From assembly GCA_002730035.1 (NCBI GenBank), contig PBYU01000094.1:1-64000 (forward strand): a stretch of DNA of 64,000 bases, written 5' to 3'. Source of the stretch: Gammaproteobacteria bacterium. Lineage in GTDB: Bacteria; Pseudomonadota; Gammaproteobacteria; Pseudomonadales; Pseudohongiellaceae. The stretch's first letter is position 1; each line of letters opens with the position of its first letter. The notes under the pieces were generated by a model. That model was not told where the DNA came from and did not search any database. It worked only from the letters and a program-made list of their open reading frames with translations. This document shows positions 3,336 through 53,525 of the stretch, piece after piece. The translations under genes and the position numbers were made by a program.

Positions 3336-3366
3336 TGAGGGGCTCCTGTGTTTCTTCAAATTCAAA

Positions 3367-35674: not shown

Positions 35675-37543
35675 ATGGAACAGTGCATGCGACCCAAAAT
35701 TGCCAGATTATCAATTACTGCCATCTTGCTCTTTTTTACGCCCATTTTTGCCTTCTCTCAGGATGTCCTGAATGAAGCGGAATTGTCGGATGGAGAAACG
35801 CAATATCAACTAGTTTGCGCTGAATGTCATGAGGGAGCCTTGCTGGAAGCCCCGCAGCGAGCGGCGTTCGAGTTGTACACACCGCGACGTATTGTAGAGG
35901 CGTTGGAATTCGGATCTATGGCTACTTCCGGAATGTCACTGACTCGCGGACAGAAACGAAATGTTGCCTACTATCTTACAGGTGAGAGATTCGATGAAGC
36001 GCGTACAGAAAGTATCAGCTTTAACTGCGAATCGAGTCTGGATTCATCTCTTACATTAAGCCAGCCTGTGGCATGGAACGGCTGGGGTGGTGAATCTGGG
36101 AATACGCGTCATCAGGCCAGCGAATCAATTCTCAACAAGAATAATGTCGGTCAATTAGAACTCAAATGGGCGTTTGCGTTTCCCGAAGCAACCCGATCGC
36201 GATCACAGCCGGTGGTCACTCCGGAAGTCACTTTCATAGGAAGTCAGGAAGGGACTATTTATGCGCTTGATAATACAAGCGGTTGCCCCTGGTGGACCTT
36301 CAGCGCTGATGCAGAAGTGCGTGGTGCTATTTATGTCGATACCAATGACCAAGGAGTACCTGAAACTCTGTTGTTCGGGGATTTCGCCGCGAGTGCCTAT
36401 GCAGTAAATGCACAGACTGGAGAGCTGATTTGGAAGCGAGAAGTTCATGATCATCCTCAAGCAACCATCACCGGGTCAGTTATTGCCCATGAAGACACAC
36501 TGATCGTCCCTGTCTCCTCATTGGAGGTGCTTCTGGCCGCCAGAGTCGGGTATCCCTGTTGTTCGTTTCGAGGTGCACTGGTTGCATTCAGTATTAGCAG
36601 TGGCGAAGAATTGTGGCGCACTTATACCACCGATGAACCTCGACCCACTATCGTGAGTACTGCTGGCATACAGCAGTTTGGTCCATCTGGCGCGCCTATC
36701 TGGTCGAGCCCGACTATCGATGCCGAGCGCAATCTAGTTTACGTTGGCACCGGTGAAAACTATTCATCACCGGCAAATGATTACAGCGATGCCGTATTGG
36801 CCATGGATATGTCGAATGGCAGAATTATTTGGGCCTCTCAACTCACCAAGGACGATGCCTGGAATGGGGCCTGCTCAAGAGGGACTCCAAACTGTCCCGA
36901 AGAAGACGGACCCGATTATGATATTGGTGCCTCTCCCATATTGGCCCGGGATGAAAGCGGCCGTGAACTCATTCTGGTGGGTCAAAAATCCGGCATGGTC
37001 TATGCCCTGGATCCTGCAAATAATGGTGAGCTGGTTTGGGAACAACGTGCTGGAAGTGGTGGCACAATGGGGGGCATACACTACGGAATGAGCACTAACG
37101 GCGAGAAGCTCTTCGTTGGTGTTTCAGATTTGCCAACCAATAATCCCTACAATGTCGGTCCCGGTCATCCGGGTATCCACGCGCTAAATCTCAGCACTGG
37201 AGAAGTGCTGTGGCGCAATGATCTGCCAGATAAGTGTGAAGAAAGTCGCTTCCTTTGTTGGCAGGGAATTTCCGCTGCGGTCAGTAGTACAGCCGACCTC
37301 GTATTTGCCGGCGGACTAGATGGTATCTTGCGTGCTTTCGATGCCAATAACGGCGCCACACTCTGGGAAACCAATACACGACAGAGCTTCGGTACACGAA
37401 ATGGGATCGAAGCAAGAGGTGGCTCCATCGAATCAGACGGACCGGTCATAATGAATGGCCAGGTCTTTATCACCTCCGGCTATGAAAAGTGGGCCGAAGC
37501 ACCGGGGAATGTGCTGTTGGTCTACTCGATCAATGGCCAATAG
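35675..37543 (+). CDS. PVA-dehydrogenase-like quinohemoprotein (N-terminal heme c)
   Basis: The 622-aa product has a signal peptide (ending FAF-SQ), then a small cytochrome c domain with C48-AE-C51-H52 and candidate Met ligands in GSMATSGM. A PQQ propeller follows. Features of the polyvinyl-alcohol dehydrogenase branch are the adjacent cysteines in YPCCSFRG, DDAWNGACSRGTPNCPEEDG and GSGGTMGGIHYGMS. Such enzymes oxidise secondary alcohols and hand electrons first to their own heme. The ATG at 35675 and a second one at 35687 are both possible starts. It stands alone and is divergent from the SDR gene. Confidence 0.85.
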   Translation: MEQCMRPKIARLSITAILLFFTPIFAFSQDVLNEAELSDGETQYQLVCAECHEGALLEAPQRAAFELYTPRRIVEALEFGSMATSGMSLTRGQKRNVAYYLTGERFDEARTESISFNCESSLDSSLTLSQPVAWNGWGGESGNTRHQASESILNKNNVGQLELKWAFAFPEATRSRSQPVVTPEVTFIGSQEGTIYALDNTSGCPWWTFSADAEVRGAIYVDTNDQGVPETLLFGDFAASAYAVNAQTGELIWKREVHDHPQATITGSVIAHEDTLIVPVSSLEVLLAARVGYPCCSFRGALVAFSISSGEELWRTYTTDEPRPTIVSTAGIQQFGPSGAPIWSSPTIDAERNLVYVGTGENYSSPANDYSDAVLAMDMSNGRIIWASQLTKDDAWNGACSRGTPNCPEEDGPDYDIGASPILARDESGRELILVGQKSGMVYALDPANNGELVWEQRAGSGGTMGGIHYGMSTNGEKLFVGVSDLPTNNPYNVGPGHPGIHALNLSTGEVLWRNDLPDKCEESRFLCWQGISAAVSSTADLVFAGGLDGILRAFDANNGATLWETNTRQSFGTRNGIEARGGSIESDGPVIMNGQVFITSGYEKWAEAPGNVLLVYSINGQ

Positions 37544-37613: not shown

Positions 37614-38177
37614 CTAAAAATTCGTAGCCCGTATCTTGTAATTGGACCGATCCTTCCAGCTACGGGTTATCGCCTGCATGGTGAGGCCGCCGAAAATTTC
37701 ACGATAGCGCAAGTGGCTGTAGGGGCGCAGTTGTATCATGATGATCGAAAGCATGTCTTCTTCTGGATTAAGAAAGAACATGGTGCCGAAAGCCCCTCCC
37801 CAACTCGCGGTTCCGCGGGAATTGGGTTCGCGGGCGATACCGACGTCGGTAACCATGGTATAACCCAGCCCGAAACCATAGCCTGGTCCTTTTAGTGTCA
37901 CCAGATTGTCACCGATGTGGTTGGAGATCATCAGGTTGATAGTGGTGGGGCTAAGGTAACGCCGACCTTCAAATTCGCCTCCATTCAAAATCATCTGTTG
38001 TAGCCGAAAGCAGTCATGAATTGTGGATGAGAGACCACCGGAACCTGAGAAGTATGCAGTGGCGGGGCGAAATTCTGGAGGATTAGTCAGCTGATAGTCC
38101 AGGTTTTCATCAGGACCGTAGATGGCGGCAACCCTGTCCAATTTCTCCATAGGCACATTAAAGTGGGTATCCACCAT
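37614..38177 (-). pseudogene. Serine hydrolase (class C beta-lactamase-like), C-terminal half
   Basis: The 187 codons match the second half of the family: MVDTHFNVPMEKLDRVAAIY, FSGSGGLSSTIHDCFRLQQM, PGYGFGLGYTMVTD and TASWGGAFGTMFF. The N-terminal half with the SxxK serine is absent. Similarity begins exactly at 38177, and a stop lies five codons upstream of it. The abrupt start coincides with the beginning of the opposite-strand fragment at 38164. Confidence 0.8.
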
Positions 38178-38640
38178 CCTGGAGAAACACTACCGACCAG
38201 GCAACTCGGTAATTATCACCAACGATGATTTAGCCAAGTGGGTGAGGCGCGATTTCCCGAATTACCGTGTCGAAGCAAGTGTCATTAAGAACATAAACAC
38301 GCTGAAGAAGGTAGAGAAGGCTTATAGCATTTACGATACAGTCATTCTTCCAATGGAAGCAAATGAGGACGAAGCATTACTTCTCTCGCTTCCTGAGAAG
38401 GAACGTATCATGTTATTCGCCAACGCCGGCTGTGCCATGACCTGTCCCTCTAAAATTTGCTATACCGGCGTTTCGAAAGCCAACAAAGAGGGTGACACCA
38501 GCCTCTGGAAGTGTTCTCAATCCTTGAAGCCCAGGGATATACTGGGCATGATGGATTTCGATCTCGACTATCTGCGAGAGCTGGGCTTTCACCGCTTTAA
38601 GTTGCTTCGATCAAGGCCTGGGCAGATGACAGGGTTTTGA
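38164..38640 (+). pseudogene. 5'-truncated gene, possibly U32-peptidase-like
   Basis: About 155 plausible codons run from STILEKHYRPGNSVIITNDD to a natural stop. The upstream part of the frame is antisense to the serine-hydrolase remnant. A cysteine cluster (GCAMTCPSKICYTG, then WKCSQ) and YDTVILPMEANEDEA recall U32/UbiU-V-type proteins, which bind a 4Fe-4S cluster. I am not sure of the family. The lost 5' end and promoter make expression unlikely. Confidence 0.5.
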
Positions 38641-38691: not shown

Positions 38692-40263
38692 CTATTCATC
38701 AGGCACTATTTCATCGCCATAAATCACCACATTATCCAATTCAACTCGACCAACATCACTTGGATTCTTTAACCTCAATTCCACGGTGTGCTCACCATCA
38801 ACCAGAGCATACTTCCAGGCCAAATAGAAACGACGCTTTGTGAATTGCGTTGGCCAGCTGACAGTTTCAACTAGTGTGTCGTCGATATAGATATCCGCCT
38901 CAAACACATAATCGAGTTCACCATCAGCCACCGCGGTGCCCAAAAGAGCGTAACCGACACCATCAAAATCGAAACTGTATGAATCTGTGAGGATGAGTTG
39001 ATCGTCGCCACTGGGGTTATTGCTGTCACTAAGTGCGAGCCGCTGTTTGGGATAATGATTTTCAAATGAGTCTTCGAAAGGAACTGTCTCGGCATCTTGA
39101 AGCTGAATGGTAATGTTATCGCCACTAATTGAACCACCCTCGCGTTCAATCAACTGAAGGGCATGGCGGTAAGACATGTCATAGGCGTCGTCCAAGGAAA
39201 TCGTAGTATAGGCAAAATCCATCGATTCAATTTCTGCCAGTCCTTGCTTCCAAAAATCAGGGATGCCGCTGTAGCCATAGATAGTACCGAGAATGCCGGC
39301 TGCTGAGGCTGGATTGCAATCCGCATCGTCACCGGCTCTGGTGGCAATCTCCAGCGTCCGCGAAAAATCACCATCGCCGTATAGCAAACCGAGAACGACC
39401 CAGGCAGCGTTAATTTTCGCATCTATATTAAAAGGTGACATCAGACCTCTCGGGCCCAGATCGGTGTCGGACCATTTATCATGAATACCCTGCCAGGCAA
39501 ACTTCCAGTCGTCTGGATTCTCTTCATGCAGGGCGATGACATCGCTTATGATTTTGTAGAAATCACTCTGAGTTGGAATTACTTCCAATGCTTCTTTGAC
39601 AATGCCTTCTATGTCATCGTTGACAAAGGCCAGGGAATACATTGAGGCAATGTACACACCACCGTACCAACCATCACCGTAGTTCATGATGTGGCCGACT
39701 CTGTCGCTGATTTCTATGGCGCTATTCACCATACCTGGAGCCATGATGCCGGCAAAGTCTGCTTCAATCTGGAAATCGATATCGTCAGCAGCTGGATTAT
39801 TCATCCAGTGCCCAGACTGAGGCGGGCTGATGCCATCTAACACGTTGTAGCGGGCTACCTGGTTGGCAAACCAGAGACTATAGTCAGCGTTTGCAAAGGC
39901 GTTAGCAAATGACTGAGCAGGCGCTTCAATGCCTTCGTCTTCAAATACCTGGACAAAAGTAAGGTCCATATAGATGTCATCGTAGACACCAGGAATTTCA
40001 TCCATGGTTTTGAATAGGTAACCATCGTACCAGAGCAACTCGTGATCATCAGGCACCCGCGTACTGTTAAACCTGAACTCAACAGGAAAGCCATAAGTGA
40101 CGCCGATTGTCTGCGCCGCCCAAGCCCCTTTGATCTTATCCCTAAGGGCTTCTTCAGAAAAAGTAACCGTATTCTCCGCTGAAAATCCCGCCACTGGAAA
40201 CAGCAGCAGGCTGACCACCGCAATATGCAAGCCAGGCATTCTTAATCTATTTCGTATTGTCAC
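38692..40263 (-). CDS. Secreted ADP-ribosylglycohydrolase-family protein
   Basis: The 523-aa product begins at a GTG at 40263 (GAGAGGG upstream) and has a signal peptide (ending GFS-AE). The family core shows IKGAWAAQTIGVTYG (44-58), YDDIYMDL with metal-binding acids (D95, D96, D100), and the second metal motif TRAGDDADCNPASAAGILG. The last 120 or so residues form a beta-rich module (YVFEADIYIDDTLVETVSWP, HTVELRL) resembling a carbohydrate-binding sandwich. It would cleave N- or O-ribosyl bonds outside the cytoplasm. It is divergent from the ribokinase and ribose transporter genes, which indicates that ribose is the product exploited. The precise substrate is unknown. Confidence 0.8.
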   Translation of the reverse strand: MTIRNRLRMPGLHIAVVSLLLFPVAGFSAENTVTFSEEALRDKIKGAWAAQTIGVTYGFPVEFRFNSTRVPDDHELLWYDGYLFKTMDEIPGVYDDIYMDLTFVQVFEDEGIEAPAQSFANAFANADYSLWFANQVARYNVLDGISPPQSGHWMNNPAADDIDFQIEADFAGIMAPGMVNSAIEISDRVGHIMNYGDGWYGGVYIASMYSLAFVNDDIEGIVKEALEVIPTQSDFYKIISDVIALHEENPDDWKFAWQGIHDKWSDTDLGPRGLMSPFNIDAKINAAWVVLGLLYGDGDFSRTLEIATRAGDDADCNPASAAGILGTIYGYSGIPDFWKQGLAEIESMDFAYTTISLDDAYDMSYRHALQLIEREGGSISGDNITIQLQDAETVPFEDSFENHYPKQRLALSDSNNPSGDDQLILTDSYSFDFDGVGYALLGTAVADGELDYVFEADIYIDDTLVETVSWPTQFTKRRFYLAWKYALVDGEHTVELRLKNPSDVGRVELDNVVIYGDEIVPDE

Positions 40264-40464
40264 TGTCTTATCCCTCTCTCAAACTCTAAATGGAAACGCC
40301 ATGCCGTTGCATTGTTCAGCTCGATGAATTGTTGGCTGATCTCCAGTACGGCCTGGTCTGCACTGCCATTTACGCTATTCTAATATTGATGTAGGGTAAG
40401 CTCCAGCGTGAGACAAAGGCCTACCCGGTGTGTTTCTAGAGGGAATAATAAGAGGAGTCCATTC
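40264..40464. promoter_or_regulatory. Divergent promoter region of the ribose locus
   Basis: This 200-base spacer separates the secreted glycohydrolase (minus) from ribokinase (plus) and must hold both promoters. AGGAG at 40453-40457 serves the ribokinase GTG. I could not identify a clear LacI-type operator or -10/-35 pair, and no rbsR-like regulator gene is in the window. Confidence 0.4.
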
Positions 40465-41382
40465 GTGATTACAAGCTTTACAACTGCTATTACCGTAATC
40501 GGCAGTATCAACACCGACATGGTAGTAAAAACTAAACAACTACCTTCCCCTGGGCAAACGGTAATCGGCGGAGATTTTTTCATGTCAGCCGGAGGCAAAG
40601 GCGGGAATCAGGCCGTAGCAGCGGCTCGATTGGGCGCGGCAGTTTCGATGGTAGGCAATCTCGGCACCGATATTTTCGGTGACACCGCGGTTAGTAGATT
40701 GGAGTCTGAAGGCATGGACTGCAGATTTATCAGTCGTGACAGTCATCAACATTCAGGAGTAGCACTGATAAGCGTTGACGGCAGTGGAGAGAATCACATC
40801 GTTGTCTCACCGGGTGCTAACAGTACATTGAATGACGCGCACATCGAAGCGGCATTCAACGCAATAGATGACTCATCAATAGTCTTACTCCAGTTAGAAA
40901 TTTCAATGGCCACGGTGACCAAAGCTATTGCTCTTGCGGGAAAAAAGAATTGTCGGGTGATTCTCGATCCGGCACCTGCTCAAGAATTACCTGCATCGAT
41001 AATGAAAGGTGTGTATTTGCTAACTCCCAATGAATCCGAGGCTGAAATACTCACAGGAGTCCGAGTTCATGATGAGAATTCTGCTCGACAGGCAGCAGGT
41101 AAACTGCTGGCAGCCGGCGCCGAAAACGTCTCCATTACCCTTGGCAGTAAAGGTGTTTTTCTGGCAAACGGTGGGAGTGACCGTCTCATTTCTGCACCAG
41201 CTGTAGATGCCGTTGATACAACTGCCGCGGGAGATTGCTTTAATGGAGCTTTGGCCGTATCTCTGGCCAGCGGCAACAGTCTACCTGAGAGTATGGATTT
41301 TGCGTGTAGAGTCGCTTCGATTTCAGTAACTCGTCTTGGCGCTCAGGATTCCATGCCTTACATCAACGAGATTGAACAATAG
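40465..41382 (+). CDS. rbsK: Ribokinase
   Basis: The 305-aa cytoplasmic PfkB-family kinase phosphorylates D-ribose to ribose 5-phosphate. The start is the GTG at 40465, with AGGAG 7 bases upstream; an ATG further left would add a non-family leader. Motifs are GSINTDMVV, GGKGGNQAVAAARLGA (the PfkB N-terminal signature), LLTPNESEAEILTG and the catalytic DTTAAGDCFNGAL with the base Asp. The length is typical for RbsK. It is the first gene of the plus-strand ribose operon, followed by the ABC transporter genes. Confidence 0.9.
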   Translation: MITSFTTAITVIGSINTDMVVKTKQLPSPGQTVIGGDFFMSAGGKGGNQAVAAARLGAAVSMVGNLGTDIFGDTAVSRLESEGMDCRFISRDSHQHSGVALISVDGSGENHIVVSPGANSTLNDAHIEAAFNAIDDSSIVLLQLEISMATVTKAIALAGKKNCRVILDPAPAQELPASIMKGVYLLTPNESEAEILTGVRVHDENSARQAAGKLLAAGAENVSITLGSKGVFLANGGSDRLISAPAVDAVDTTAAGDCFNGALAVSLASGNSLPESMDFACRVASISVTRLGAQDSMPYINEIEQ

Positions 41383-41512
41383 ATCAGTTCAGGTAGTTCT
41401 ATTGCCCATAGAAAATTGGATTGAGAGTGAATAGTCTGACAATAGGTTAGCCATCGATCCATGCTATTCTTAACTGCATAGTTCACGCGCAAGTATGAGG
41501 CAGGAATTGGAA

Positions 41513-42484
41513 ATGAGAACGATGAAAAAGTTGATAAGCGCTGCGGTGCTATTTCTGCTTGCCGCGTGTGGATCGGAAGAGACTACAAATTCATCGACTG
41601 TAGACGGTGGTGCTGCCACCAAGCCGAAAGTTGCTCTGGTAATGAAGTCTCTGGCTAACGAATTTTTCGTCAATATGGCAAACGGAGCGGAGGCACATCA
41701 GGCAGCACACAGCGACCAATACGAACTAATAGTCAACGGCATTAGAAACGAAAGCGATCTGGCACAACAAGTAAGCCTGGTTGACCAGATGATTAGCTCT
41801 GGCGTGCAAGCTATAGTCATTGCTCCAGCCGATTCCAAGGCACTTGTACCTGCTCTGGCTCGCGCCGTAGCTACGGGAATAGTCGTTATCAATATTGATA
41901 ATCGCCTCGAACCCGAAGTACTGGCCGAGTATAAATTACGGATTCCGTTCATTGGCCCCAGCAATCGCGAGGGAGCGAAGTTAGTCGGCGACTATGTTCT
42001 GCAAGGGCTAGATAGGGGCAGTGAGGTTGCCATTCTCGAAGGTATATCGTCGGCGTTCAATTCAATTCAACGCAGGACCGGTTTCGAAGATGCAGTTGCG
42101 CAAGCGGGCATGAAGGTAGCGACATTGCAAAGTGGTGATTGGGATCAAACAAAAGCCGCACAGTTAACTTCTGCGATTTTGTCACAGTTCCCTGAACTGG
42201 ATGTCATTCTCGCTGCTAATGACAATATGGCCCTCGGTGCTGCATCTGCTGTGGGGCTGGCGGCGCTCGATCATAAAGTTACCATTGCCGGTTTTGACAA
42301 TATCACTGCTATACACCCACTCATTGAATCCGGGGCAGTGGCCGCCACTGTGGACCAGTTTGGTGACCAGCTAGCGATATTCGGTATTGAGTATGCGCTG
42401 GAAATAGTGGCAAATGGCACGGTCCTTCAAGACCGTGAAACTCCTCTGGAGTTAGTTACTGCCGCTTCCCTGCAAGCAAATTAG
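41513..42484 (+). CDS. rbsB: Ribose-type ABC transporter substrate-binding lipoprotein
   Basis: The 323-aa product from the ATG at 41513 (AGGA 7 bases upstream) has a lipoprotein signal (LLAACGSE, lipid-modified Cys). Unlike the soluble RbsB of E. coli it would be membrane-anchored. The mature part is a type 1 periplasmic-binding fold: VALVMKSLANEFFVNMANGA, DQMISSGVQAIVIAPADSKA, FIGPSNREGAKLVGDYVLQG and the sugar-contact segment AANDNMALGAASAV. Sugar specificity is inferred from rbsK and the permease. It sits 16 bases before the ATPase gene. Confidence 0.85.
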   Translation: MRTMKKLISAAVLFLLAACGSEETTNSSTVDGGAATKPKVALVMKSLANEFFVNMANGAEAHQAAHSDQYELIVNGIRNESDLAQQVSLVDQMISSGVQAIVIAPADSKALVPALARAVATGIVVINIDNRLEPEVLAEYKLRIPFIGPSNREGAKLVGDYVLQGLDRGSEVAILEGISSAFNSIQRRTGFEDAVAQAGMKVATLQSGDWDQTKAAQLTSAILSQFPELDVILAANDNMALGAASAVGLAALDHKVTIAGFDNITAIHPLIESGAVAATVDQFGDQLAIFGIEYALEIVANGTVLQDRETPLELVTAASLQAN

Positions 42485-42499
42485 GATATCGCACCCATT

Positions 42500-44026
42500 G
42501 TGACTGCCCGCATAGCTATCGAAGGGCTCGATAAAAGCTTCGCCACACCGGTATTGAAGCAGGTTGCCTTGCAAATCTCGACCGGGAGTATCCACGGTCT
42601 GGTGGGAGAAAACGGAGCCGGTAAATCCACATTGATTAATATTATCAGTGGGTTGTTGCCCCCCGATTCTGGTTCTATGGCGCTAGACGGTAAATCCTAC
42701 TCCCCCACTTCTAGAAAGGCAGCGCTTGATGCAGGAATCGCCTTGGCATCTCAGGAATTAAGCCTGATTGATACCCTGTCGGTGGCAGAAAATATTCTGC
42801 TGACATCGTTTCCTCAAAGGGCTCTCGGAATTAATCGGCATGCAGTCAGGCAGCGAGCCAGGGTCTTGATGGATCTAGTGGGTCTGGAACAACTTTCGCC
42901 TCAGACACCGCTTGCACAGCTGAGTCTGGCGGAGAAGCAGTTAGTGGAACTGGCCAAGGCATTGTCCATGCCGGAAGACACTACCAGACTGCTGATCCTG
43001 GATGAGCCCACATCGGCTTTAACATCTCCACAGGCGGACCAATTACACCGGATTATTAAGCAGCGCTCAGCCTCAGGATTAAGTGTCATTTATGTTTCTC
43101 ACCGCCTTGATGATGTGCTTTCTGTTTGTGATACGGTATCTGTATTACGCGATGGAGTGATTCAGCTAACGGCTGCTTGCGCTTCCTTGACCAGTAATGA
43201 TCTGATCAGAGAAATGTCTGGAGAGGAACTACTGCGACATAGCGATGATAAGCCAAGAACTTTTGGCGACGTTCGTCTCACGGTTGAGCAGCTATCAAGT
43301 GTGGATTTTCCTGAACCAATTTCACTGCACTGTCATCGTGGAGAGATCCTCGGCATTGCTGGACTTGCCGGCGCGGGACGATCTGAGTTATTGCACGCTA
43401 TCTACGGACTGTCAGCTGAGCGCCAGGGGCGAGTTGTGCTGCACGCGGCGGGGCAGGATAGTGTTATCGATTCCGCCAGTACGGCTGCCAACAATGGAAT
43501 GGCGTTGATCGCCGAAGATCGGAAGTCCCAGGGAATTTTTACCGGCAAGACCATCTCCCTGAACACAACGATCGCCGGCCTGGGAAAACTGGGTGGTGCT
43601 CTGAGTGCGATCCTGCCCAGGCGGGAACAACGCGTCACTGAAGAATTGATCGCACAGCTAAAGGTGAAGTGTGAAGGACCGTTGCAAACTATCGATAAAC
43701 TAAGCGGAGGCAATCAACAGAAGCTATTGGTCGCCCGTTGGTTGCAGGCGAAATCGGATGTTTGGCTGCTCGATGAACCGACGCGTGGAGTCGATGTCGG
43801 TTCGAAGCTGGCCATTCACGATCAGCTGCGACAGTCGCGCGATCAAGGCGCGGCACTACTAATCGTGTCCAGTGAGCTGGAAGAGTTGACGGCACTGTGT
43901 GATCGCATTCTAGTGTTGTCGGACAAAAAAGCCGTGGAGACCTATCATCGCGGCCAGTGGGACAAAGAAATGTTACTGGAGGCAGCCTTTAGTAATTACC
44001 AGGGAGTGCGTGTTGCAGCGGGGTAA
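42500..44026 (+). CDS. rbsA: Ribose-type ABC transporter ATPase (double domain)
   Basis: The 508-aa protein has two ABC domains, as in RbsA/MglA/XylG. Domain 1 has the Walker A GENGAGKST, the signature LSLAEKQLVELAKAL and LLILDEPTSAL. Domain 2 has the degenerate GLAGAGRSEL typical of this family, LSGGNQQK and LLDEPTRGVDVGSK. It energises import on the cytoplasmic face together with the permease at 44085. The start is a GTG at 42500, 16 bases after the receptor gene; no strong ribosome site is seen, so translation may be coupled. Confidence 0.9.
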   Translation: MTARIAIEGLDKSFATPVLKQVALQISTGSIHGLVGENGAGKSTLINIISGLLPPDSGSMALDGKSYSPTSRKAALDAGIALASQELSLIDTLSVAENILLTSFPQRALGINRHAVRQRARVLMDLVGLEQLSPQTPLAQLSLAEKQLVELAKALSMPEDTTRLLILDEPTSALTSPQADQLHRIIKQRSASGLSVIYVSHRLDDVLSVCDTVSVLRDGVIQLTAACASLTSNDLIREMSGEELLRHSDDKPRTFGDVRLTVEQLSSVDFPEPISLHCHRGEILGIAGLAGAGRSELLHAIYGLSAERQGRVVLHAAGQDSVIDSASTAANNGMALIAEDRKSQGIFTGKTISLNTTIAGLGKLGGALSAILPRREQRVTEELIAQLKVKCEGPLQTIDKLSGGNQQKLLVARWLQAKSDVWLLDEPTRGVDVGSKLAIHDQLRQSRDQGAALLIVSSELEELTALCDRILVLSDKKAVETYHRGQWDKEMLLEAAFSNYQGVRVAAG

Positions 44027-44084
44027 TCTCATGCGCACGTGTAGTCGAGAATAGAAAAACCAAAATAGTCAGAGAGAAGCCATT

Positions 44085-45020
44085 TTGTTGAGAAAACTGA
44101 ACTTGCTGTTTGAAGAGCTTTTTATCTTCATTGCACTGTTATTGTTGGTGGCGTTCTTCGGCGTGATGGCGGAAAATTTTTTTACTGCAGGCACGCTTAT
44201 GGCAATTCTCACCCAGCTTCCCGCTTTAACCGTTGTGACAATTGGTATGACCCTGGTGCTAATCAGCGGAGGAATCGACTTATCTGTCGGTTCTGTAGTG
44301 GCATTGAGTGGCGGTGTGATTGGTATCGCTTTTACCGTATTTGAATTGCCTCTGATAATCGCTGCGGCTCTGGGAATATTAGCCGGAGGCTGTGCAGGTC
44401 TGGTCAATGGTGTACTGGGGAGTTATTTCCGCTTACCTGTTTTTATCGTTACCTTGGGAATGCTGGAAGCTGGGCGAGGCTTGGCCTACATGGTCACGGA
44501 TTCGCAAACCGTTTATATCGGTGCCAGCATTCAGGCTTTGTCTCTGCCGATATCCGGTATCGGCTTGTCGCCTTCTTTTATTATGTCGCTGACACTGGTG
44601 GTGCTCGCTCAATACGCATTAACCCGAACCATTTTCGGGCGTTACTTGATAGCCATTGGAACCAATGAACAGGCGGCGAAAATCTCCGGAATCCGAACCG
44701 AGCCTTATTTGACCTGGGTACTGGTGATATCTGGTCTGCTGGCTGGTCTTGGAGGCCTGATGAATGCAGCCTATTTGGGAGCCTCCGATCCCAATGCTGC
44801 GATCGGCCTGGAACTGTCGGCCATTGCAGCTGCAGTAATCGGTGGTACCAGCTTGATGGGTGGGCGCGGCTCCATCGTTGGCGCTTTTATCGGTGTCTTG
44901 ATTATTTCTGTACTTCAAAATGGATTGGCGCAACTGGGAGTATCAGAACCGGTGAAGCGCTTAATAACCGGACTGGTGATTATCCTTGCCGTATTACTCG
45001 ATCGCTGGCGTAGCCGCTAG
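44085..45020 (+). CDS. rbsC: Ribose-type ABC transporter permease
   Basis: The 311-aa inner-membrane protein has about eight to ten hydrophobic helices and the family signature GIDLSVGSVVALSGGVIG, followed by NGVLGSYFRLPVFIVTLGML, the GTNEQAAKISGI cytoplasmic loop that contacts the ATPase, and GGTSLMGGRGSIVGAFIG. The start is one of two adjacent TTG codons at 44085 or 44088. One permease gene with a double-domain ATPase is the standard ribose-family arrangement. Confidence 0.9.
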   Translation: MLRKLNLLFEELFIFIALLLLVAFFGVMAENFFTAGTLMAILTQLPALTVVTIGMTLVLISGGIDLSVGSVVALSGGVIGIAFTVFELPLIIAAALGILAGGCAGLVNGVLGSYFRLPVFIVTLGMLEAGRGLAYMVTDSQTVYIGASIQALSLPISGIGLSPSFIMSLTLVVLAQYALTRTIFGRYLIAIGTNEQAAKISGIRTEPYLTWVLVISGLLAGLGGLMNAAYLGASDPNAAIGLELSAIAAAVIGGTSLMGGRGSIVGAFIGVLIISVLQNGLAQLGVSEPVKRLITGLVIILAVLLDRWRSR

Positions 45021-45144
45021 GATCGAACACTAACTAGTGCCTGGATCGATGGCCAGCCAGGCGCCCCGCCAACATGCGGCATAAGAACGGCCTGTGCTAG
45101 ACTCGCTTCAATTCAAACTAATGAAATCATGAGGAAACAATCTA

Positions 45145-46140
45145 ATGAGCAGATTAATTTTCATAGTTGCCTTGTGTATTCAAGCGGCGAACGCGGACCC
45201 GGTAAAAGTTATCTTTGATACCGATATGGGAAATGACGTGGATGACGCATTGGCTCTGGCAATGCTGCACTCATTCGAAAACCGAGCTGAAAGCGAGTTA
45301 TTAGCCATTACAATCACCAAAGACCACGTCGAGGTTCCACCCTATATAGATGCCATCAATACATTTTATGGGCGAGGAGAAATCCCGTTAGGAACAACAA
45401 GTAGCGGTGTCACACCACAGCAAAGCAGGTTCACGGGAATCATCCATGAAAAAATTGGTGATAACCCAGTTTTTCCCCACGATTTGCTTGTTGGTGATCC
45501 GGTTCAAGAAGCTGCCAGCTTATTGCGCCAAACATTGTCGTCCCAGGCAGACCAATCCGTAGTGATCATTCAAGTAGGTTTTTCGACTAATCTGGCACGA
45601 TTGCTGGCAACCGGTCCCGATGAACATTCTGAGCTTAGCGGGCGTGATCTCGTCACCAGGAAGGTAAAGTTCATATCCATAATGGCTGGCGCTTTTGCTG
45701 AAATATCTGGTGAAACACATTTGGAATACAATGTGGTGCAGGATATTGCTTCAGCACAAATCCTCGCTAGAGAGTGGCCGACTAAGATCATCTGGAGTGG
45801 ATTCGAAATTGGGCTGGCAATACGTTATCCAGCAGCCAGCATTGAAAATGACTTTCTCTATAAAGAGCGTCATCCAATCCGCGAGTCCTATCAGCTCTAC
45901 ATTCCAACACCCCATGAGAGACCTACCTGGGATCTAACAAGCGTCGTCTATGGGATTCGCCCGGATCATGAGTACTTCGAACTTTCTCCACCGGGAATCG
46001 TATCTGTCCTGGACGATGGGGAAACCGTATTCAATCCTGATCAGAACGGGCAACACTATTTCTTGAAAGCGGATGACGATAGGATTCCTCGCATAAAGGA
46101 ATTAATGACTCTACTTGTAAGTGCGCCGCCCCAGCCTTGA
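45145..46140 (+). CDS. Secreted inosine-uridine-type nucleoside hydrolase
   Basis: The 331-aa product has a short signal peptide (ending ANA-DP) followed at once by the nucleoside N-ribohydrolase signature DTDMGNDVDDALAL, whose Asp residues bind Ca2+ and activate water. GAFAEISGETHLEYNVVQD corresponds to the later active-site segment. Family members split nucleosides into base and ribose. Most are cytoplasmic, and the signal here would place it in the periplasm, upstream of the ribose importer. AGGAAA lies before the ATG. It follows rbsC by 124 bases on the same strand. Confidence 0.85.
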   Translation: MSRLIFIVALCIQAANADPVKVIFDTDMGNDVDDALALAMLHSFENRAESELLAITITKDHVEVPPYIDAINTFYGRGEIPLGTTSSGVTPQQSRFTGIIHEKIGDNPVFPHDLLVGDPVQEAASLLRQTLSSQADQSVVIIQVGFSTNLARLLATGPDEHSELSGRDLVTRKVKFISIMAGAFAEISGETHLEYNVVQDIASAQILAREWPTKIIWSGFEIGLAIRYPAASIENDFLYKERHPIRESYQLYIPTPHERPTWDLTSVVYGIRPDHEYFELSPPGIVSVLDDGETVFNPDQNGQHYFLKADDDRIPRIKELMTLLVSAPPQP

Positions 46141-46240
46141 TTAACTATCGAATGAACAATAAGCATGCAAAACACCGGGCAGCGGATCACTTATAAAACC
46201 GGTCCCCTTGCAATCCTTCTCTCAATTTTCATTCAGAAAC

Positions 46241-46268
46241 TTCTGTATTTTTACTCCAACGCCAATTA
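46241..46268. repeat. 28-bp TGGGGTCAGAGTA-type repeat, reverse copy
   Basis: TTCTGTATTTTTACTCCAAC then GCCAATTA is a moderately diverged reverse copy, sited between the nucleoside hydrolase and the Rid protein genes. Confidence 0.6.
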
Positions 46269-46331
46269 TTGTACCTATGTCCAAAACTCAAGTTTCCGCG
46301 CGCAACATTCCTCAAGAAATGGGTAAAGTAG

Positions 46332-46925
46332 ATGAAACTATTCTCGCGACAGACTTCTAAAGCAAAAACAATAAACACCATAATTTCCGTGCCTGAGAAT
46401 ACCAATGCTGGTACATTCAAGCGCAAATTTTTGAAAATTTTCAATTCAACAAGCAGACTTTTATCACTGCGCACTATTTTCTGTTGCTACCTGGCAGCAC
46501 TGGGAGGAAGTTCAGCTATGGCCGCAGAATCAAGCTCTCTGGAAAAAGAATTTATTAACCCTGCTGGGTCTAGTTTTACGAATGTAGTAACGGTCAGCAA
46601 TGGAGGAGTAAAGACACTTTATATTTCAGGGCAGGTAGGTTTTTCTGGAAACCAGCTTCCCGATGATTTTAGCCAGCAGGTTGAAAATGCTTTTTCGAAT
46701 CTACGGCAACAATTGGAAGACGCTGGCGCCGAATTATCAGATATTGTAAAAACGAATGTCTATATCGTTGATCTGGACAGGGAAAAAGTTGCTGCCTACA
46801 GCGCAGTGCGGGCTACACATTTTCCTCAACAAGACCAGTCAGCATCGACTATGGTGGGGGTGACAGCTCTGGCTTTCCCGGGCCTGGCAGTAGAGATAGA
46901 GGCAGTCGCTGTTGTTGAAGACTGA
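46332..46925 (+). CDS. Exported Rid (YjgF/UK114) family protein
   Basis: The 197-aa product has a long N-terminal extension with a hydrophobic segment ending AMA-ESS, consistent with export. A Rid fold follows: TLYISGQVGFSGNQLPDDFS, QVENAFSNLRQQLEDAGAEL, SDIVKTNVYIVDLD and LAVEIEAVAV. RidA enzymes need an Arg near the end (VARLP in E. coli-type proteins) to destroy imines; the matching segment here is VTALAF, so that Arg is missing and it belongs to another Rid subgroup. The start is uncertain because no ribosome site is clear. It may end the ribose operon, after a 190-base gap holding a repeat. Confidence 0.75.
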   Translation: MKLFSRQTSKAKTINTIISVPENTNAGTFKRKFLKIFNSTSRLLSLRTIFCCYLAALGGSSAMAAESSSLEKEFINPAGSSFTNVVTVSNGGVKTLYISGQVGFSGNQLPDDFSQQVENAFSNLRQQLEDAGAELSDIVKTNVYIVDLDREKVAAYSAVRATHFPQQDQSASTMVGVTALAFPGLAVEIEAVAVVED

Positions 46926-46990: not shown

Positions 46991-49024
46991 ATGAACTACC
47001 ACATGCCGACACTTCTCGCGGGAATACTTATTCTCAGTTCATCGCTCGCTGCACAGGCCGCGGAATTTTCACAGATAAGGCCGGATGCAGAAACACTATC
47101 GGAACTGCCTACCACCGACTGGCTGACTAATGGCGGGGATCTGTTCAATCGAAACTTCTCTGCATTGACTGAGATTAACACTGGCAACGTCAGTCAACTT
47201 GGCCCGGTCTGGCGTACTCATCTCGGTGGCTCCGGGTTCGGAGCAAAGTATTCGGGAGAGGCGCAGCCCATCGTCCATGAAGGGGTCATGTATATCATAA
47301 CCGGCGACGATGATGTCTTTGCCCTGAGCATTGATACCGGGGAAATCCTGTGGCGCCACTCGGCTAATCTCACCGAACAGATTTCAACGGTCTGCTGTGG
47401 ATGGACCAGTCGCGGCGTGGGATTTGGCGAAGACAAGATCTTCATGGGTCAACTGGATGGAGTGCTCAAGGCATTGGACATAAACAACGGCGAGGAAGTC
47501 TGGTCAGTTCAGGCCGAAGACTGGGAAGAAGGCTATACCATCACCAGCGCACCCCTGTATTTTCAGGGCATGGTTATAACCGGATTCGCAGGTGCTGAAT
47601 TTGCGGCTCGAGGGCGAGTAAAGGCGTTTAGCGCTAACGACGGTAGCCTGCTTTGGACTTTCTATACCGTGCCAGGCCCCGGCGAATTTGGTTTTGAGAC
47701 CTGGCCAGCAGACAACGACGCCTGGCAAACCGGTGGCGGCACAGTCTGGCACACGCCTGCGGTCGATCCCGAGTTAGGCATGGTTTACTTTTCAACCGGC
47801 AACCCGGGCCCAGACTATAATGGTTCAGTACGCGCCGGTGACAATCTATTCACTGTTTCCATCGTGGCGCTGAATGTGTACACAGGAGAATATCGTTGGC
47901 ACTTTCAAGAGGTTCACCACGACATCTGGGATTACGATGCACCGAACCCGGTTACGCTGTTTGATCTGGACTACAACGGAGTGCCACGCAAAGGCCTGGC
48001 CCAGGCCGGCAAGACCGGATTCTTGTATATTCTCGATCGCACTAATGGCGAGCCGTTGGTTGGTATAGAAGAGAGACCAGTTCCTCAGGAACCCCGCCAG
48101 GCGACTGCCGCCACTCAGCCTTATCCCGTTGGCGAAGCCTTCGTGACTCAAACATTGGATGTAGCACCTGAGGGCTACCAGCTCATAAATAACGGCGCCA
48201 TCTTTACACCATTTTGGGATGAGCCAGTCATGCTACGCCGCGGCGATGCCAATTGGCCACCCAGTACCGTAGACCCAAACAAAGGGGTGATGTACATCTG
48301 CGGCGGCGAGCGACAGGCCGCCTATTCCATCAGTGGAGATTTGCAGCAAGTGGAACCCGGTGACCGCTACACTGGTGGCGGCATGCGGTTTGCGAATATC
48401 CCAATCACCGGAATCGTTACCGCAATGGATCTACGCACCAATCGCAGGGTGTGGAGCCAGCGTTGGCCCAGTCGCTGTTACAGTGGCCTGGTGGCGACTG
48501 CTGGCGACCTGCTGTTTGCCGGTCGCAACGATGGTCGTTTAACAGCGCTGGATGCTCGAGATGGAACGAAGTTATGGGAGTACATGACCGACGCAGGAGT
48601 CAACGCTCCGGCTACGGTATTCGAACACGACGGCAAGCAATACGTTGCGGTGTACTCCGCGGGAAATCTGTTGGGCAGGGCCAAGCGGGGAGACAGCGTA
48701 TGGACGTTCTCCCTGTTGGATGACGAACAGTCTGATGTGATTGCCCGGGAGCAGGTGAATCCTGCTCAAGCAAATCCGGAAGGACAAGACTTATTCCTGG
48801 ATACTTGCCAGTTTTGTCACGGGCCGACTGGTGAGGGCGGACACGATGGCATGCCGCTGGAAGGATTGGCTGCGTTCGACACCAGTTACGTGGCAGATAT
48901 TATTCGCGATGGCCAGAACAACATGCCGGCATTCACGTCCATGTTTTCTGGTGGCCAGATCAGGGCGCTGGCAGAACACGTGAGAACATTAAATCCCGAC
49001 ATAACCAATCGGAACAGTCGCTAG
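46991..49024 (+). CDS. Quinohemoprotein alcohol dehydrogenase (C-terminal heme c)
   Basis: The 677-aa periplasmic product has a signal peptide (ending QAA-EF), a PQQ propeller and a C-terminal cytochrome c. Typical type II alcohol-dehydrogenase features are WLTNGGDLFNRNFSALTEIN, the adjacent cysteines in TVCCGWTSRG, the active-site HHDIWDYDAPNPVTLFD and repeated tryptophan-docking motifs. The heme motif is C606-QF-C609-H610 with a Met ligand in NNMPAF. Electrons pass from the alcohol to PQQ, then heme c, then the respiratory chain. It lies 65 bases after the Rid gene and is convergent with CHEGN copy 3. Confidence 0.9.
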   Translation: MNYHMPTLLAGILILSSSLAAQAAEFSQIRPDAETLSELPTTDWLTNGGDLFNRNFSALTEINTGNVSQLGPVWRTHLGGSGFGAKYSGEAQPIVHEGVMYIITGDDDVFALSIDTGEILWRHSANLTEQISTVCCGWTSRGVGFGEDKIFMGQLDGVLKALDINNGEEVWSVQAEDWEEGYTITSAPLYFQGMVITGFAGAEFAARGRVKAFSANDGSLLWTFYTVPGPGEFGFETWPADNDAWQTGGGTVWHTPAVDPELGMVYFSTGNPGPDYNGSVRAGDNLFTVSIVALNVYTGEYRWHFQEVHHDIWDYDAPNPVTLFDLDYNGVPRKGLAQAGKTGFLYILDRTNGEPLVGIEERPVPQEPRQATAATQPYPVGEAFVTQTLDVAPEGYQLINNGAIFTPFWDEPVMLRRGDANWPPSTVDPNKGVMYICGGERQAAYSISGDLQQVEPGDRYTGGGMRFANIPITGIVTAMDLRTNRRVWSQRWPSRCYSGLVATAGDLLFAGRNDGRLTALDARDGTKLWEYMTDAGVNAPATVFEHDGKQYVAVYSAGNLLGRAKRGDSVWTFSLLDDEQSDVIAREQVNPAQANPEGQDLFLDTCQFCHGPTGEGGHDGMPLEGLAAFDTSYVADIIRDGQNNMPAFTSMFSGGQIRALAEHVRTLNPDITNRNSR

Positions 49025-49154: not shown

Positions 49155-50189
49155 CTACCTAGTGCTGTTTTCAGCCTCCAGGCGTTCCTCGACTCGTGCG
49201 CCTCGTATAATGTTGAACATACCGTAATTACCTTCGTGGCAGGCATATTCATATACCTGACCTGCTACCTTGCTCATTGGTACGATCGCGGTAATCTTAT
49301 CGGTAAACGTAGACGGGTCATCGATAGTAAATTCATAATTCACAGTGTCATAGGCAATCCGCGTGAATTTCTCAGTGAGCAACATATCTAAATTACTGCC
49401 CCTGCTTTGAAACGAGGTTTGCATGCCATTAAAATTTCTGGTTTCAACAACCAGAGTATCGCCCTCCCAATAACCTCGTGAATCACCAGACCAGAGCCTG
49501 ATGTCGTCACTCAGCGCAGGCTTTTCGACCAGTGGCACGATACGGGCATCGTGAATCATCTCAGTCATGATCACGAAGGTATCCTTGCTCTGAAATAGTT
49601 GCAGATTATTATTATATAGACTCGGTGAGAAAGGAGGCCCGGCATTGAATCCAACCAGGCAGCGCTCGGATAATCCTCGATCTTCCGGGCCGTCTTTAGT
49701 GATGCCCCCCACAATGAAGCGAACGGGTCGCTGACCGGTAATATCCGGGCCCAGGCCACCGGCTATTACCGGATTGCCCTCAACGGCTTGCGGGGCACGC
49801 CCACCCAAAGGATAGACGACGTGGGAAGTCCTGACATTATCACCTCTATTACCCATCTCAATCCAAAACGAATTGTAGCCCCCGGGGTCGGTGCCAGCCG
49901 GCGGAGCTTCAGGATTAAGCACCAGCTCAGCCTCTATTGCATCGGCCGCCGCTTCCATACCGGCCTGGCGTGCGATAGCTTCCTCTATTTGTTCCGGCGT
50001 CAGGAATTCCTGCTCGCCGTAGCGTTCCGCACGCTCCATAGGAGTGCTCGAACTGAAATTCCAGACGCCCTGTAAATCGGGCTGGCCATACTCAGTTCGA
50101 GGCACCACGTATTCGCCATCTGATTGAGCTACAGCCATCCCGCTTATTGCTGTAAGCATTGACATCATTAACAAAATTTTTATTTTCAT
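49155..50189 (-). CDS. Secreted CHEGN-motif family protein, copy 3
   Basis: The 344-aa product has a signal peptide (ending AVA-QSDG). It shares the family blocks PRTEYGQPDLQGVWNFSSST, ERCLVGFNAGPPFSPSLYNN, EMIHDARIVPL, GDSRGYWEGDTLVVETRNF and YEYACHEGNYGMFNIIRGAR, but is clearly more distant from copies 1 and 2 than they are from each other. It lies between two heme-containing quinoproteins. The function is unknown; secretion and the repeated placement near quinoproteins suggest a role in the same extracytoplasmic metabolism. Confidence 0.7.
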   Translation of the reverse strand: MKIKILLMMSMLTAISGMAVAQSDGEYVVPRTEYGQPDLQGVWNFSSSTPMERAERYGEQEFLTPEQIEEAIARQAGMEAAADAIEAELVLNPEAPPAGTDPGGYNSFWIEMGNRGDNVRTSHVVYPLGGRAPQAVEGNPVIAGGLGPDITGQRPVRFIVGGITKDGPEDRGLSERCLVGFNAGPPFSPSLYNNNLQLFQSKDTFVIMTEMIHDARIVPLVEKPALSDDIRLWSGDSRGYWEGDTLVVETRNFNGMQTSFQSRGSNLDMLLTEKFTRIAYDTVNYEFTIDDPSTFTDKITAIVPMSKVAGQVYEYACHEGNYGMFNIIRGARVEERLEAENSTR

Positions 50190-51082: not shown

Positions 51083-51380
51083 TGCTACATTTTCCTGAGT
51101 TTTGTTACGTTTGTACTTAGTCGTGGGTGTTTTACAAAAGGTTATTTCCAGATCGGCTTGTGATTTCAAAAAGCCGTCCAATTTTAGCAGGCGAATTGGT
51201 CAATTCGCACAACCCCACTCCCCAACTATACAGCTTTTGGCATGCAAGGGTCGCCGTTCAATGCAGCCCTTAGGCCTGGTATACGGCGATTGGTCAAGAA
51301 ATCTTCACCAGCGCCCTTTACTGTTCGGCAATCCTATAATACAAATAGAAGCAGATAAGCATAAGCGGAGAAAATATCGA

Positions 51381-53525
51381 ATGAAAAAGCCACTTAGCCT
51401 GACAGCCACTGCCATCGCGGTGTTGGTGCTTGGAATCGGAATATTGACCGATCTTGACACGGCAGCTGCCGCCGAACAGGCAACTGGCACAGGCAATGTT
51501 GACGATGCCAGGATCATTAATGCACCGGTGACCGAACCGGGCAGCTGGCTCGCCTACGGACAGACCTACAAGGAGCAGCGCTTCTCTCAACTGACTCAGA
51601 TCAATCCGGACACTGTGGATGAGCTGGGGCTGGCCTGGTCCACACAAATTGGCGACTACAACATGCGTATGCAAGGCACACCCCTGGTGGCGGATGGTGT
51701 CATGTACGTCTCCAATGGCTGGAGTGTGGTGTACGCGCTCGACGCCACCAATGGCGAAGAGATCTGGCGTTACGACCCGGAAGTAGATCGAAGTTATGCT
51801 CGTCTGGCCTGCTGTGGCCCGGCCCACAACCGGGGCGTGGCCGTGTACCAAGGCAAGGTCTATGTAGGGACCTTCGATGGACGCTTGATTGCTATAGATG
51901 CAACGACCGGCATGGAGGTCTGGGATGTGGATACCTGGGTTCCGGCAGGGCTGGGGCATTTCAATATCACCGGGGCGCCGCGGGCAGCCGCCGGCAAGGT
52001 TTACATCGGTCAGGGTAGTGGTGAATCCGGCCATCGGCGTGGATATGTCACTGCTTATAACGCCGAAACTGGCGAAGTAGACTGGCGCTTCTTCCTGGTG
52101 CCCGGCGACCCGAGCCAACCCTTCGAACACCCAGAAATGGAGATGGCCGCCCAGACATGGGGTGGCGAATGGTGGAAGTACGGCGGTGGCGGTACGGCCT
52201 GGAACTCCCTGGTCTATGACGAAGAATTCAACAGCCTCTATATAGGTGTAGGAAACGGCGCCCCCTGGCCACGGGAAATCCGCTCGCCCGGTGGCGGTGA
52301 CGATCTGTTTCTCTCCTCCATTGTTTCGGTGGATGTCGATACCGGTCTCATGAACTGGTACTACCAGACAACTCCCGGTGACAACTGGGATTACAGTTCT
52401 GCCATGGATATGACCATCGGTGAAATCGAGTTCGGTGGCGAAATGCGCCAGGTGTTATTGCAGGCACCGAAGAACGGTTTCTTCTATGTGCTCGACCGCA
52501 ATGACGGCGAACTGCTGCGCGCCCTTCCCTATACCGACGGTATTGACTGGGCCACACGCGTCGATATGGAAACGGGGCGACCCGTGGAAAATCCGGACGT
52601 AGCATACGAAGTAAAACCTCAATGGATAATGCCGGCTAATTCCGGAGCCCACAACTGGGAACCACAGTCCTGGGATAATGATATGGGCCTGATGTATTTC
52701 TACTATCACGATATCGCCAACTTCTATTCGCTGGATGAAGGCTTTGTCGAAACCGGTGAGTACGAGATTCGCGAACGCGGCCTCAGTCTGGGTTGGGGCG
52801 AAGGGGAATATCGCCGACGGCTGATCGAGCAAGCCGGCCCGCGCCCGGACTCTCAGGCTTTCATAGGTGCGTTCGATCCAATAACAGGTTCTTATAAATG
52901 GCGCCGCCCACTTGAGTCCGATTACAATGGTGGTGTCGTTGCGACCAGAGGAGGAGTGCTGTTCCACCCCGAAGGCACCGGTGATTTTGTCGTGCGGGAT
53001 ACCGATGATGGCGAACTACTCTGGAGCTTTGCTGCTCCCGGGACGTTTCGTTCTACTTCGGTCATGACGTATATGGTTGATGATGTGCAGTACGTGGCTA
53101 CCATGATGAATGGCAACCGCACCATAGATCTAGGCGGAACTGTGTTGGTGTTCAAGCTAGATGGCGATGCGACTCTGCCCATTGCGGAAATCGTGCAACA
53201 GGAAGTGCCCGAGCAACCTGATGAGGAGTACAGTCCGCAGCTCGTCAGCCAGGGCGATGGACTCTACCACGCACAATGCGCCAGCTGTCATGGCGGCATC
53301 GGCATTCCTTCGGAAGTGGCTATCGTGGCTCCGGACCTGCGTTTGATGACACTGGATACCCATGGCGATTTCGAGAATATCGTTCTCGAGGGTGCACGTG
53401 CAGAACAGGGTATGCCTGACTTCGAAGATGCAGTGACCAACGAGCAGCTGGAAGCTATTCGGGCATTCATAGTCAACCAGGCCAGGCAACTGAGAGAATA
53501 CCAACAAAATAGTCAAGCCCAGTAA
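51381..53525 (+). CDS. Quinohemoprotein alcohol dehydrogenase (C-terminal heme c)
   Basis: The 714-aa product starts at the ATG at 51381, giving a signal peptide (ending TAAA-AEQ); the frame is open 93 codons further left, but that stretch overlaps the divergent gene's leader. The propeller has WLAYGQTYKEQRFSQLTQIN, the adjacent cysteines ACCGPAHNRGV, GDNWDYSSAMDM at the active site and many tryptophan-docking motifs. The C-terminal heme is C633-AS-C636-H637 with a Met ligand in EQGMPDF. It oxidises alcohols in the periplasm and feeds heme c. It is a paralogue of 46991-49024. Confidence 0.9.
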   Translation: MKKPLSLTATAIAVLVLGIGILTDLDTAAAAEQATGTGNVDDARIINAPVTEPGSWLAYGQTYKEQRFSQLTQINPDTVDELGLAWSTQIGDYNMRMQGTPLVADGVMYVSNGWSVVYALDATNGEEIWRYDPEVDRSYARLACCGPAHNRGVAVYQGKVYVGTFDGRLIAIDATTGMEVWDVDTWVPAGLGHFNITGAPRAAAGKVYIGQGSGESGHRRGYVTAYNAETGEVDWRFFLVPGDPSQPFEHPEMEMAAQTWGGEWWKYGGGGTAWNSLVYDEEFNSLYIGVGNGAPWPREIRSPGGGDDLFLSSIVSVDVDTGLMNWYYQTTPGDNWDYSSAMDMTIGEIEFGGEMRQVLLQAPKNGFFYVLDRNDGELLRALPYTDGIDWATRVDMETGRPVENPDVAYEVKPQWIMPANSGAHNWEPQSWDNDMGLMYFYYHDIANFYSLDEGFVETGEYEIRERGLSLGWGEGEYRRRLIEQAGPRPDSQAFIGAFDPITGSYKWRRPLESDYNGGVVATRGGVLFHPEGTGDFVVRDTDDGELLWSFAAPGTFRSTSVMTYMVDDVQYVATMMNGNRTIDLGGTVLVFKLDGDATLPIAEIVQQEVPEQPDEEYSPQLVSQGDGLYHAQCASCHGGIGIPSEVAIVAPDLRLMTLDTHGDFENIVLEGARAEQGMPDFEDAVTNEQLEAIRAFIVNQARQLREYQQNSQAQ

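Follow-up and report, generated by a model that had tools for sequence, protein, structure and literature searches.

Does a proteobacterium free ribose from ribosides outside its cytoplasm and import only the sugar? This question is raised by a gene cluster in contig PBYU01000094.1 of the assembly GCA_002730035.1 (Gammaproteobacteria bacterium, family Pseudohongiellaceae), of which positions 1 to 64,000, here called the window, were analysed. The host genome comprises 3.96 Mb in 107 contigs and is 93% complete. The cluster spans 38692-46140 and holds a putatively exported ADP_ribosyl_GH-family protein (GH), a ribokinase, a lipoprotein receptor, a CUT2 ATPase and a CUT2 permease of the ATP-binding cassette (ABC) type, and a putatively exported nucleoside hydrolase (NH). 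The first-pass annotation read it as a self-contained locus that releases ribose from nucleosides and ADP-ribosyl compounds, a counterpart of the rus locus of Bacteroides thetaiotaomicron. The cluster is real and conserved and is most likely an ABC-based relative of rus-type ribose salvage, and we give about two chances in three to the reading that it follows the logic of rus on an ABC importer, with both GH and NH freeing ribose outside the cytoplasm. For GH, a ribosidase is provisionally the better assignment, and the ADP-ribosyl step proposed at first should be given up.

In the proposed scheme, NH would split nucleosides and GH other ribosides outside the cytoplasm, each leaving free ribose. 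The freed sugar would be captured by the lipoprotein receptor and imported by the CUT2 ATPase and permease, and the ribokinase would make ribose 5-phosphate. The two hydrolases may differ in the anomer they prefer, GH serving for alpha-ribosides and NH for beta-nucleosides. The suggestion for GH comes from the linkage that ARH enzymes cleave, ADP-ribosyl bonds being described as alpha (PMC6309922, PMC7050489).

All of the genes named at first proved to be open reading frames at the coordinates of Table 1, and their families were confirmed by Pfam with E-values of 5.6e-35 (PF03747), 4.6e-68 (PfkB), 8.6e-49 (Peripla_BP_4), 3e-48 (ABC_tran), 4.5e-44 (BPD_transp_2), 1.1e-17 (IU_nuc_hydro) and 1.5e-24 (Ribonuc_L-PSP). 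The host genome holds a single PF03747 and a single PF01156 match, both in the cluster; for ribokinase, one gene reaches an E of 1e-60. Signal sequences were assigned by eye. GH begins with the leader MTIRNRL..VVSLLLFPVAGFSA and NH with MSRLIFIVALCIQAANA, the receptor has the lipobox LLAAC, and comparable hydrophobic leaders occur in many relatives' proteins, in agreement with the signal peptides first ascribed to both glycohydrolases. The two hydrolases flank the ribokinase and the transporter, as first described, with the correction that GH is transcribed away from the rest, 144 bp separating the divergent starts. The plus-strand gaps between ribokinase, receptor, ATPase, permease and NH are 112, 15, 58 and 124 bp.

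The arrangement of GH, receptor, ATPase and permease and its linkage to ribokinase recur in the genus of the host, which supports the earlier reading. Among 84 genomes of the genus, GH gave some match in 23, full-length in 18 and distant or partial in the rest; the receptor was found in 19, and full-length GH and receptor occur together in 17 (Fisher p 1e-14, not corrected for kinship). At all genus loci GH is divergent from the (rbsK-)receptor-ATPase-permease genes, within the limits of the contig, and the order of receptor, ATPase and permease is constant wherever the contig includes them. In G008, G064 and G067 the permease falls outside the contig or stretch, and the locus of G018 is split over two contig ends. 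NH is present at the locus in 16 of the 18 GH genomes: it lies directly downstream of GH in 12, the stop-broken copy of G008 among them, and downstream of the permease in two, the window and G020. A canonical exported-looking NH stands beside GH in G014 and G023, and G020 has one too. The two GH genomes without NH at the locus are G077 and G082. One genome (G067) has GH without the receptor, its contig ending inside rbsK. Two others (G058, G083) have the receptor cassette without GH, beside another exported-looking PF03747 protein (GH2), 85% and 43% identical, respectively, to the GH2 of G077, which there follows the permease. GH2 genes beside the receptor cassette lie at L065 10627-11964, L064 4681-6285 and L004 3826-5160, and GH2 replaces GH in two genomes.

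The ribokinase family model TIGR02152 gave a match with an E of 1e-60 or less in 26 of the 84 genomes, and in 25 the match exceeds the family cut-off. One copy each was found in 19 of the 20 genomes that have GH or receptor versus 7 of the 64 others. The ribokinase is local in 13 genomes, none of which has a second copy, and six of the seven genomes without an intact local rbsK have a copy elsewhere (Fisher p 2e-4, uncorrected). No rbsK match was found between GH and receptor in G007, G008, G014 and G023; in G009, G018 and G064 rbsK keeps both ends, with the middle deleted. Such a large internal deletion with both ends kept is seen at L046, L047 and L050, in three sister genomes. In G007 and G008 the remote ribokinase lies next to a nucleoside hydrolase that lacks an obvious signal peptide, and the two genes are likewise neighbours in six genomes without GH (L073-L078). 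This pair of a leaderless-looking nucleoside hydrolase and a ribokinase, seen at L066, L067 and L073-L078, is likely a cytoplasmic counterpart within the genus.

Beyond the genus, GH keeps related company. Seventeen loci were named, of which L002, L004, L007, L008, L011, L012 and L018 were taken as genus loci, leaving 10. Two Acidobacteria of the Vicinamibacterales (L006, L009) have GH-receptor-ATPase with a divergent NH, and L006 has the permease too; a member of the Longimicrobiales (L003) has RbsK-GRP-GH plus NH, L010 has RbsK, and in L014 NH is one gene away. Plasmid records gave rbsK-GH-NH-GRP in Parabacteroides distasonis (NZ_OY725755.1; GH 54% identical over residues 34-517, NH 35%, ribokinase 52%), rbsK-GH(broken)-GRP in Spirosoma, and rbsK-GRP-PF03747 with SusC/SusD nearby in Flammeovirga, while pairs of PF03747 genes in Ensifer adjoin a different sugar ABC transporter. 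Bacteroidota have a counterpart in which this GH stands with ribokinase, a sugar permease and an NH of like kind, in support of the first reading. A GRP permease occurs in L003, Spirosoma, P. distasonis, Flammeovirga and 9 of 25 Bacteroidales loci. Since GH stands with ribokinase and a GRP permease in Bacteroidota, once as rbsK-GH-NH-GRP, the cluster looks like the ABC variant of a rus-like system. In the GH tree, the four rows from Acidobacteria fall within those of the genus, and a single genus clade is rejected only marginally (approximately unbiased test, p 0.045). Horizontal transfer of GH is likely, and misbinning of metagenome-assembled genomes may contribute, in L003 above all.

The Bacteroidales, the order of the L016 genome, bear on the strongest alternative, in which GH acts chiefly as an O-ribofuranosidase on ribose-bearing glycans or acylated ribosides, with NH as a side partner and the locus as a small glycan-utilisation system. 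Matches at E 1e-60 were found in 22 of 247 Bacteroidales genomes, and 25 loci contained ribokinase in 9, NH in 3, a SusC-like gene in 6 and the ABC cassette in none. In five of these loci (L119, L120, L121, L123, L124) three tandem PF03747 genes stand in the order RbsK-SusC-SusD-three PF03747-two esterases, and GRP is present in four; the Pfam names come from L119, and the remaining loci were tied to it by matches to its SusC, SusD and esterases. Some other loci lie near sulfatase, apiosidase-like, rhamnosidase, GH94 or GH31 genes. The C-terminal region of GH resembles jelly-roll modules of the carbohydrate-binding module (CBM) 35/36 type and of CE2 (Foldseek E 1.8e-4 to 1.9e-3), which upholds the carbohydrate-binding-like module noted at first and would suit a glycan substrate. 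However, no recurrent glycan-degrading neighbour was seen in the genus, where neighbours were grouped by BLAST and few were named by Pfam, NH stands at most of the genus loci, and some Bacteroidales GH genes adjoin housekeeping genes (TRCF, PFOR). A system devoted to glycans is thus a serious possibility, though an unlikely one.

Ribose salvage as proposed also depends on the sugar that is imported. The receptor, ATPase and permease are CUT2 proteins by profile matches and alignment, with identities to E. coli of 29% (RbsB), 36% (RbsA) and 40% (RbsC). The ribose-type transporter of the first-pass annotation holds to this extent, but the ribose-specific cut-offs are not reached (136.6/337 bits for the receptor, 373.3/745 for the ATPase and 201.1/398 for the permease). 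The nearest solved chain to the receptor is 4yle_A (E 5e-91), followed by allose- and ribose-type receptors. With numbering and ligand roles as we take them to be in RbsB, 10 of 16 positions are kept (N13, F15, F16, D89, I132, R141, N190, F214, D215, Q235). The receptor sugar is likely ribose. The transporter could instead take a non-ribose sugar (allose, apiose or another pentose) that is phosphorylated by the ribokinase-like enzyme, and the best receptor model is indeed that of D-allose (145 versus 136.6 bits for ribose, both far under cut-off). This is improbable, as the ribokinase passes the TIGR02152 equivalog cut-off (353.9 versus 299.65 bits; that of PRK11142 is narrowly missed, 325.4 versus 341), is 42% identical to E. 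coli RbsK and accompanies nearly every locus, and the enzymes known from both hydrolase families have ribosyl bonds as their targets.

The substrate of GH was approached through its fold and its conserved residues. The AlphaFold model (mean pLDDT 78.3) finds its best Foldseek matches in ARH3 and DraG, with probability 1.00 and TM-scores by target of 0.48-0.71. The residues E62, D95 and D96 are present in 17/17 alignment rows, D313 and D315 in all 16 rows that reach them, and all five are kept in 53/53 proteins of a wider alignment that includes YegU. They align with the family metal ligands E...DD...DxD (motif as given in a passage of PMC6309922). In the dinuclear motif E...[ST]DDT...DxD[ST], the flanking Thr/Ser positions of GH are Tyr94, Ile97 and Cys316. 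The dinuclear metals of ARH enzymes hold the hydroxyls (2- and 3-) of the distal ribose. The same source names as pyrophosphate contacts a Gly and a His that are invariant in ARH1 and ARH3 (PMC6309922). ARH3, MJ1187 and YegU share a loop that reads G/N-x-A-M-R, within which we would place the Gly, a placing of our own. In GH, other residues align at the Gly and the His, and this loop is absent in 17/17 rows, its position being taken by NNPxADDIDFQIEAD in all of them; the core [IL]Dx[QE] is found in 50/53 rows of the wider alignment and is lacking in YegU and two Ensifer proteins. When GH and YegU were aligned profile to profile, only the C-terminal metal motif was covered, and the loop comparison is therefore based on MAFFT alignments. 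Since the acidic residues of the ribose-holding metal site are kept and the ADP-pyrophosphate loop is lost, GH should act on the ribosyl unit itself, and we read it as a ribosidase rather than an ADP-ribosylhydrolase. The least probable of the explanations is hence that GH, true to its family name, its ARH fold and its metal-site residues, is an ADP-ribosylhydrolase acting on proteins, NAD or other ADP-ribosyl compounds, other enzymes turning ADP-ribose into ribose: the pyrophosphate contacts are replaced by an acidic segment and other residues, the product would be ADP-ribose and not ribose, and no UshA-type 5'-nucleotidase (PF02872) was found in the genome, other phosphatases not having been searched for.

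NH belongs to a divergent subfamily. Its calcium motif DTDxxxDxDD, whose residues presumably play their usual roles, is present as DTDMGNDVDD, and the later Asp is kept. It matches the P. distasonis NH over 295 residues (35%, E 4.5e-51), and no BLAST match at 1e-3 was obtained with the other two NH subfamilies.

Besides the allose score, several findings weigh against ribose salvage as proposed. Six of the 16 RbsB positions are changed in the receptor (9, 64, 90, 103, 137, 164), no RbsD was found in the genome, and NH has a Trp at what we take to be the catalytic His of classical nucleoside hydrolases. The GH model is weak at the loop (pLDDT about 50), and because of this low confidence the loop argument is one of sequence. 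GH is absent from 66/84 genus genomes, and at E 1e-100 only the window's genome matched among 369 genomes of the class, the 368 others giving none, so that GH appears sporadic. Half of the non-genus loci (L005, L013, L015, L016, L017; 5/10) show none of the partners; in four of these five, GH lies close to the end of its contig. In 16/25 Bacteroidales loci no ribokinase was found nearby. No PF01156 match at E 1e-5 was found in G077, G082 and G058, and G064 (79% complete) has the locus with no ribokinase match in its genome. The complementarity of local and remote rbsK amounts to only three independent events on the GH tree (sign test p 0.25). Co-occurrence was rejected as statistical proof, being significant only uncorrected, with three independent contrasts for rbsK complementarity. 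The locus is also only partly self-contained, since 7/20 genomes lack an intact ribokinase or carry it away from the locus, and no outer-membrane importer, SusC/SusD included, was found in a Pfam scan confined to 20 proteins of the window.

If ribose salvage of this kind is accepted, extracytoplasmic ribose salvage is extended from Bacteroidota to genomes named Gammaproteobacteria and Acidobacteria, and the importer would be swappable while the hydrolase stays. A wider proposal can be made tentatively, at somewhat less than even odds: the exported branch of 'ADP-ribosylglycohydrolases' may consist of widespread, misnamed extracellular ribosidases that kept the metal site, lost ADP recognition, partly gained a CBM-like module and are paired with ribokinase and interchangeable ABC or GRP importers, feeding on alpha-ribosides and ribose-bearing glycans beyond the reach of nucleoside hydrolases. 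Whether this large and routinely annotated branch is a ribosidase family can now be tested directly by biochemistry. If true, many genome annotations would be corrected and an overlooked riboside pool would be seen to be used by bacteria.

Table 1. Features of the ribose-salvage cluster and its neighbour, in window coordinates.
Feature	Position	Strand	Remarks
GH, exported-looking ADP_ribosyl_GH-family protein (PF03747)	38692..40263	-	523 aa, GTG start; divergent from transporter genes
GH residues 1-29, probable signal peptide	40177..40263	-	by eye; low pLDDT at 1-29
GH catalytic domain PF03747, metal-site E62, D95, D96, D313, D315	39256..40128	-	
GH residues 155-169 NNPAADDIDFQIEAD, acidic segment	39757..39801	-	at place of G/N-x-A-M-R loop of ARH3, YegU, MJ1187
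GH C-terminal beta-sandwich (residues ~395-518), CBM35/36- and CE2-like	38710..39081	-	model and Foldseek
Divergent GH/ribokinase intergenic region, 144 bp	40264..40407	.	
Ribokinase	40408..41382	+	TIGR02152 above cut-off
CUT2 sugar-binding lipoprotein (receptor)	41495..42484	+	lipobox LLAAC by eye; nearest solved chain 4yle_A
CUT2 double ATPase, RbsA/AraG-like	42500..44026	+	
CUT2 permease, RbsC-like	44085..45020	+	40% to E. coli RbsC
NH, exported-looking nucleoside hydrolase (PF01156)	45145..46140	+	divergent subfamily, common to P. distasonis cluster
Rid-family protein	46332..46925	+	neighbour, outside conserved set

NH is followed by a Rid-family gene and then by a PQQ-dehydrogenase-like gene. 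The exported Rid protein of the first reading does therefore lie where it was placed, but among the fetched relatives' loci Rid was found only at L002, the nearest relative, where inserted genes separate it from NH, and in G015 (L007/L043), where a 48% copy lies ~7 kb from GH; it was accordingly rejected as a member of the system. Its export signal is doubtful because only residues 63-197 align with the Rid of L002. Between NH and Rid, L002 carries a 710-aa opposite-strand open reading frame (1928-4060) that is not in the window and has the look, by eye, of an exported beta-helix protein. A palindrome scan of 18 divergent GH/ribokinase regions gave isolated matches in 3 and none in common, and the idea of a conserved operator there was dropped.

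Elsewhere in the window, four PQQ-dehydrogenase-like beta-propeller proteins are encoded at 24475-26553, 35675-37543, 46991-49024 and 51102-53525, two of which end in a cytochrome c domain. An exported-looking 344-aa protein without a Pfam match lies at 49155-50189, and its relatives are numerous near genus loci (three at L007, for example). At 37614-38640, a beta-lactamase-family fragment and an overlapping open reading frame without a Pfam match are apparently gene remnants, in whose place the nearest relative has an exported-looking canonical nucleoside hydrolase.

Neither a GH-NH-ribokinase-ABC cluster nor a PF03747 ribosidase was found as the subject of a paper in the open-licence literature, and the comparison is with systems that share parts of the cluster. 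E. coli rbsDACBK has the CUT2 importer and ribokinase in common with the cluster; it differs in having no hydrolases and in possessing RbsD and RbsR. E. coli yegTUV likewise joins a PF03747 protein, a putative sugar kinase and a transporter in one operon, whose functions are given as unknown and linked to glycogen accumulation (PMC10819704). YegU differs from GH in that it has no leader, keeps an NGAAMR loop and is barely alignable with GH, and the yegTUV transporter is a predicted nucleoside symporter. Staphylococcal SERP2216-2218, as partly described in PMC3637587, has the same enzyme pair, ribokinase and ADP-ribosylglycohydrolase, and a permease, which differs in belonging to the cytosine/purines/uracil/thiamine/allantoin family; intact compounds would therefore enter and be cut inside. 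As yegTUV and SERP2216-2218 show, the combination of a PF03747 enzyme with a sugar kinase and a transporter is a trio that recurs.

The nearest likeness is to rus. We take this locus to include an ADP-ribosylglycohydrolase member, and presumably a second ribokinase and RusR, for which one passage also speaks. For rus of B. thetaiotaomicron (BT2803-2809), a ribokinase, a nucleoside hydrolase and a proposed free-ribose transporter are described, and growth on or other use of ribose is stated to require the locus (PMC12596196, PMC10434189). As in rus, ribokinase adjoins the PF03747 enzyme and a sugar transporter, a likeness of gene content in which the B. thetaiotaomicron proteins are known by description, and the predicted topology is the same: cut outside, import ribose, phosphorylate. 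Unlike rus, the cluster has a CUT2 ABC importer in place of the DMT/GRP-type permease (RusT) and no SusC/SusD pair among the scanned window proteins. The P. distasonis cluster shares GH, an NH of the same kind and ribokinase with the window, a GRP-family permease there replacing the ABC transporter.

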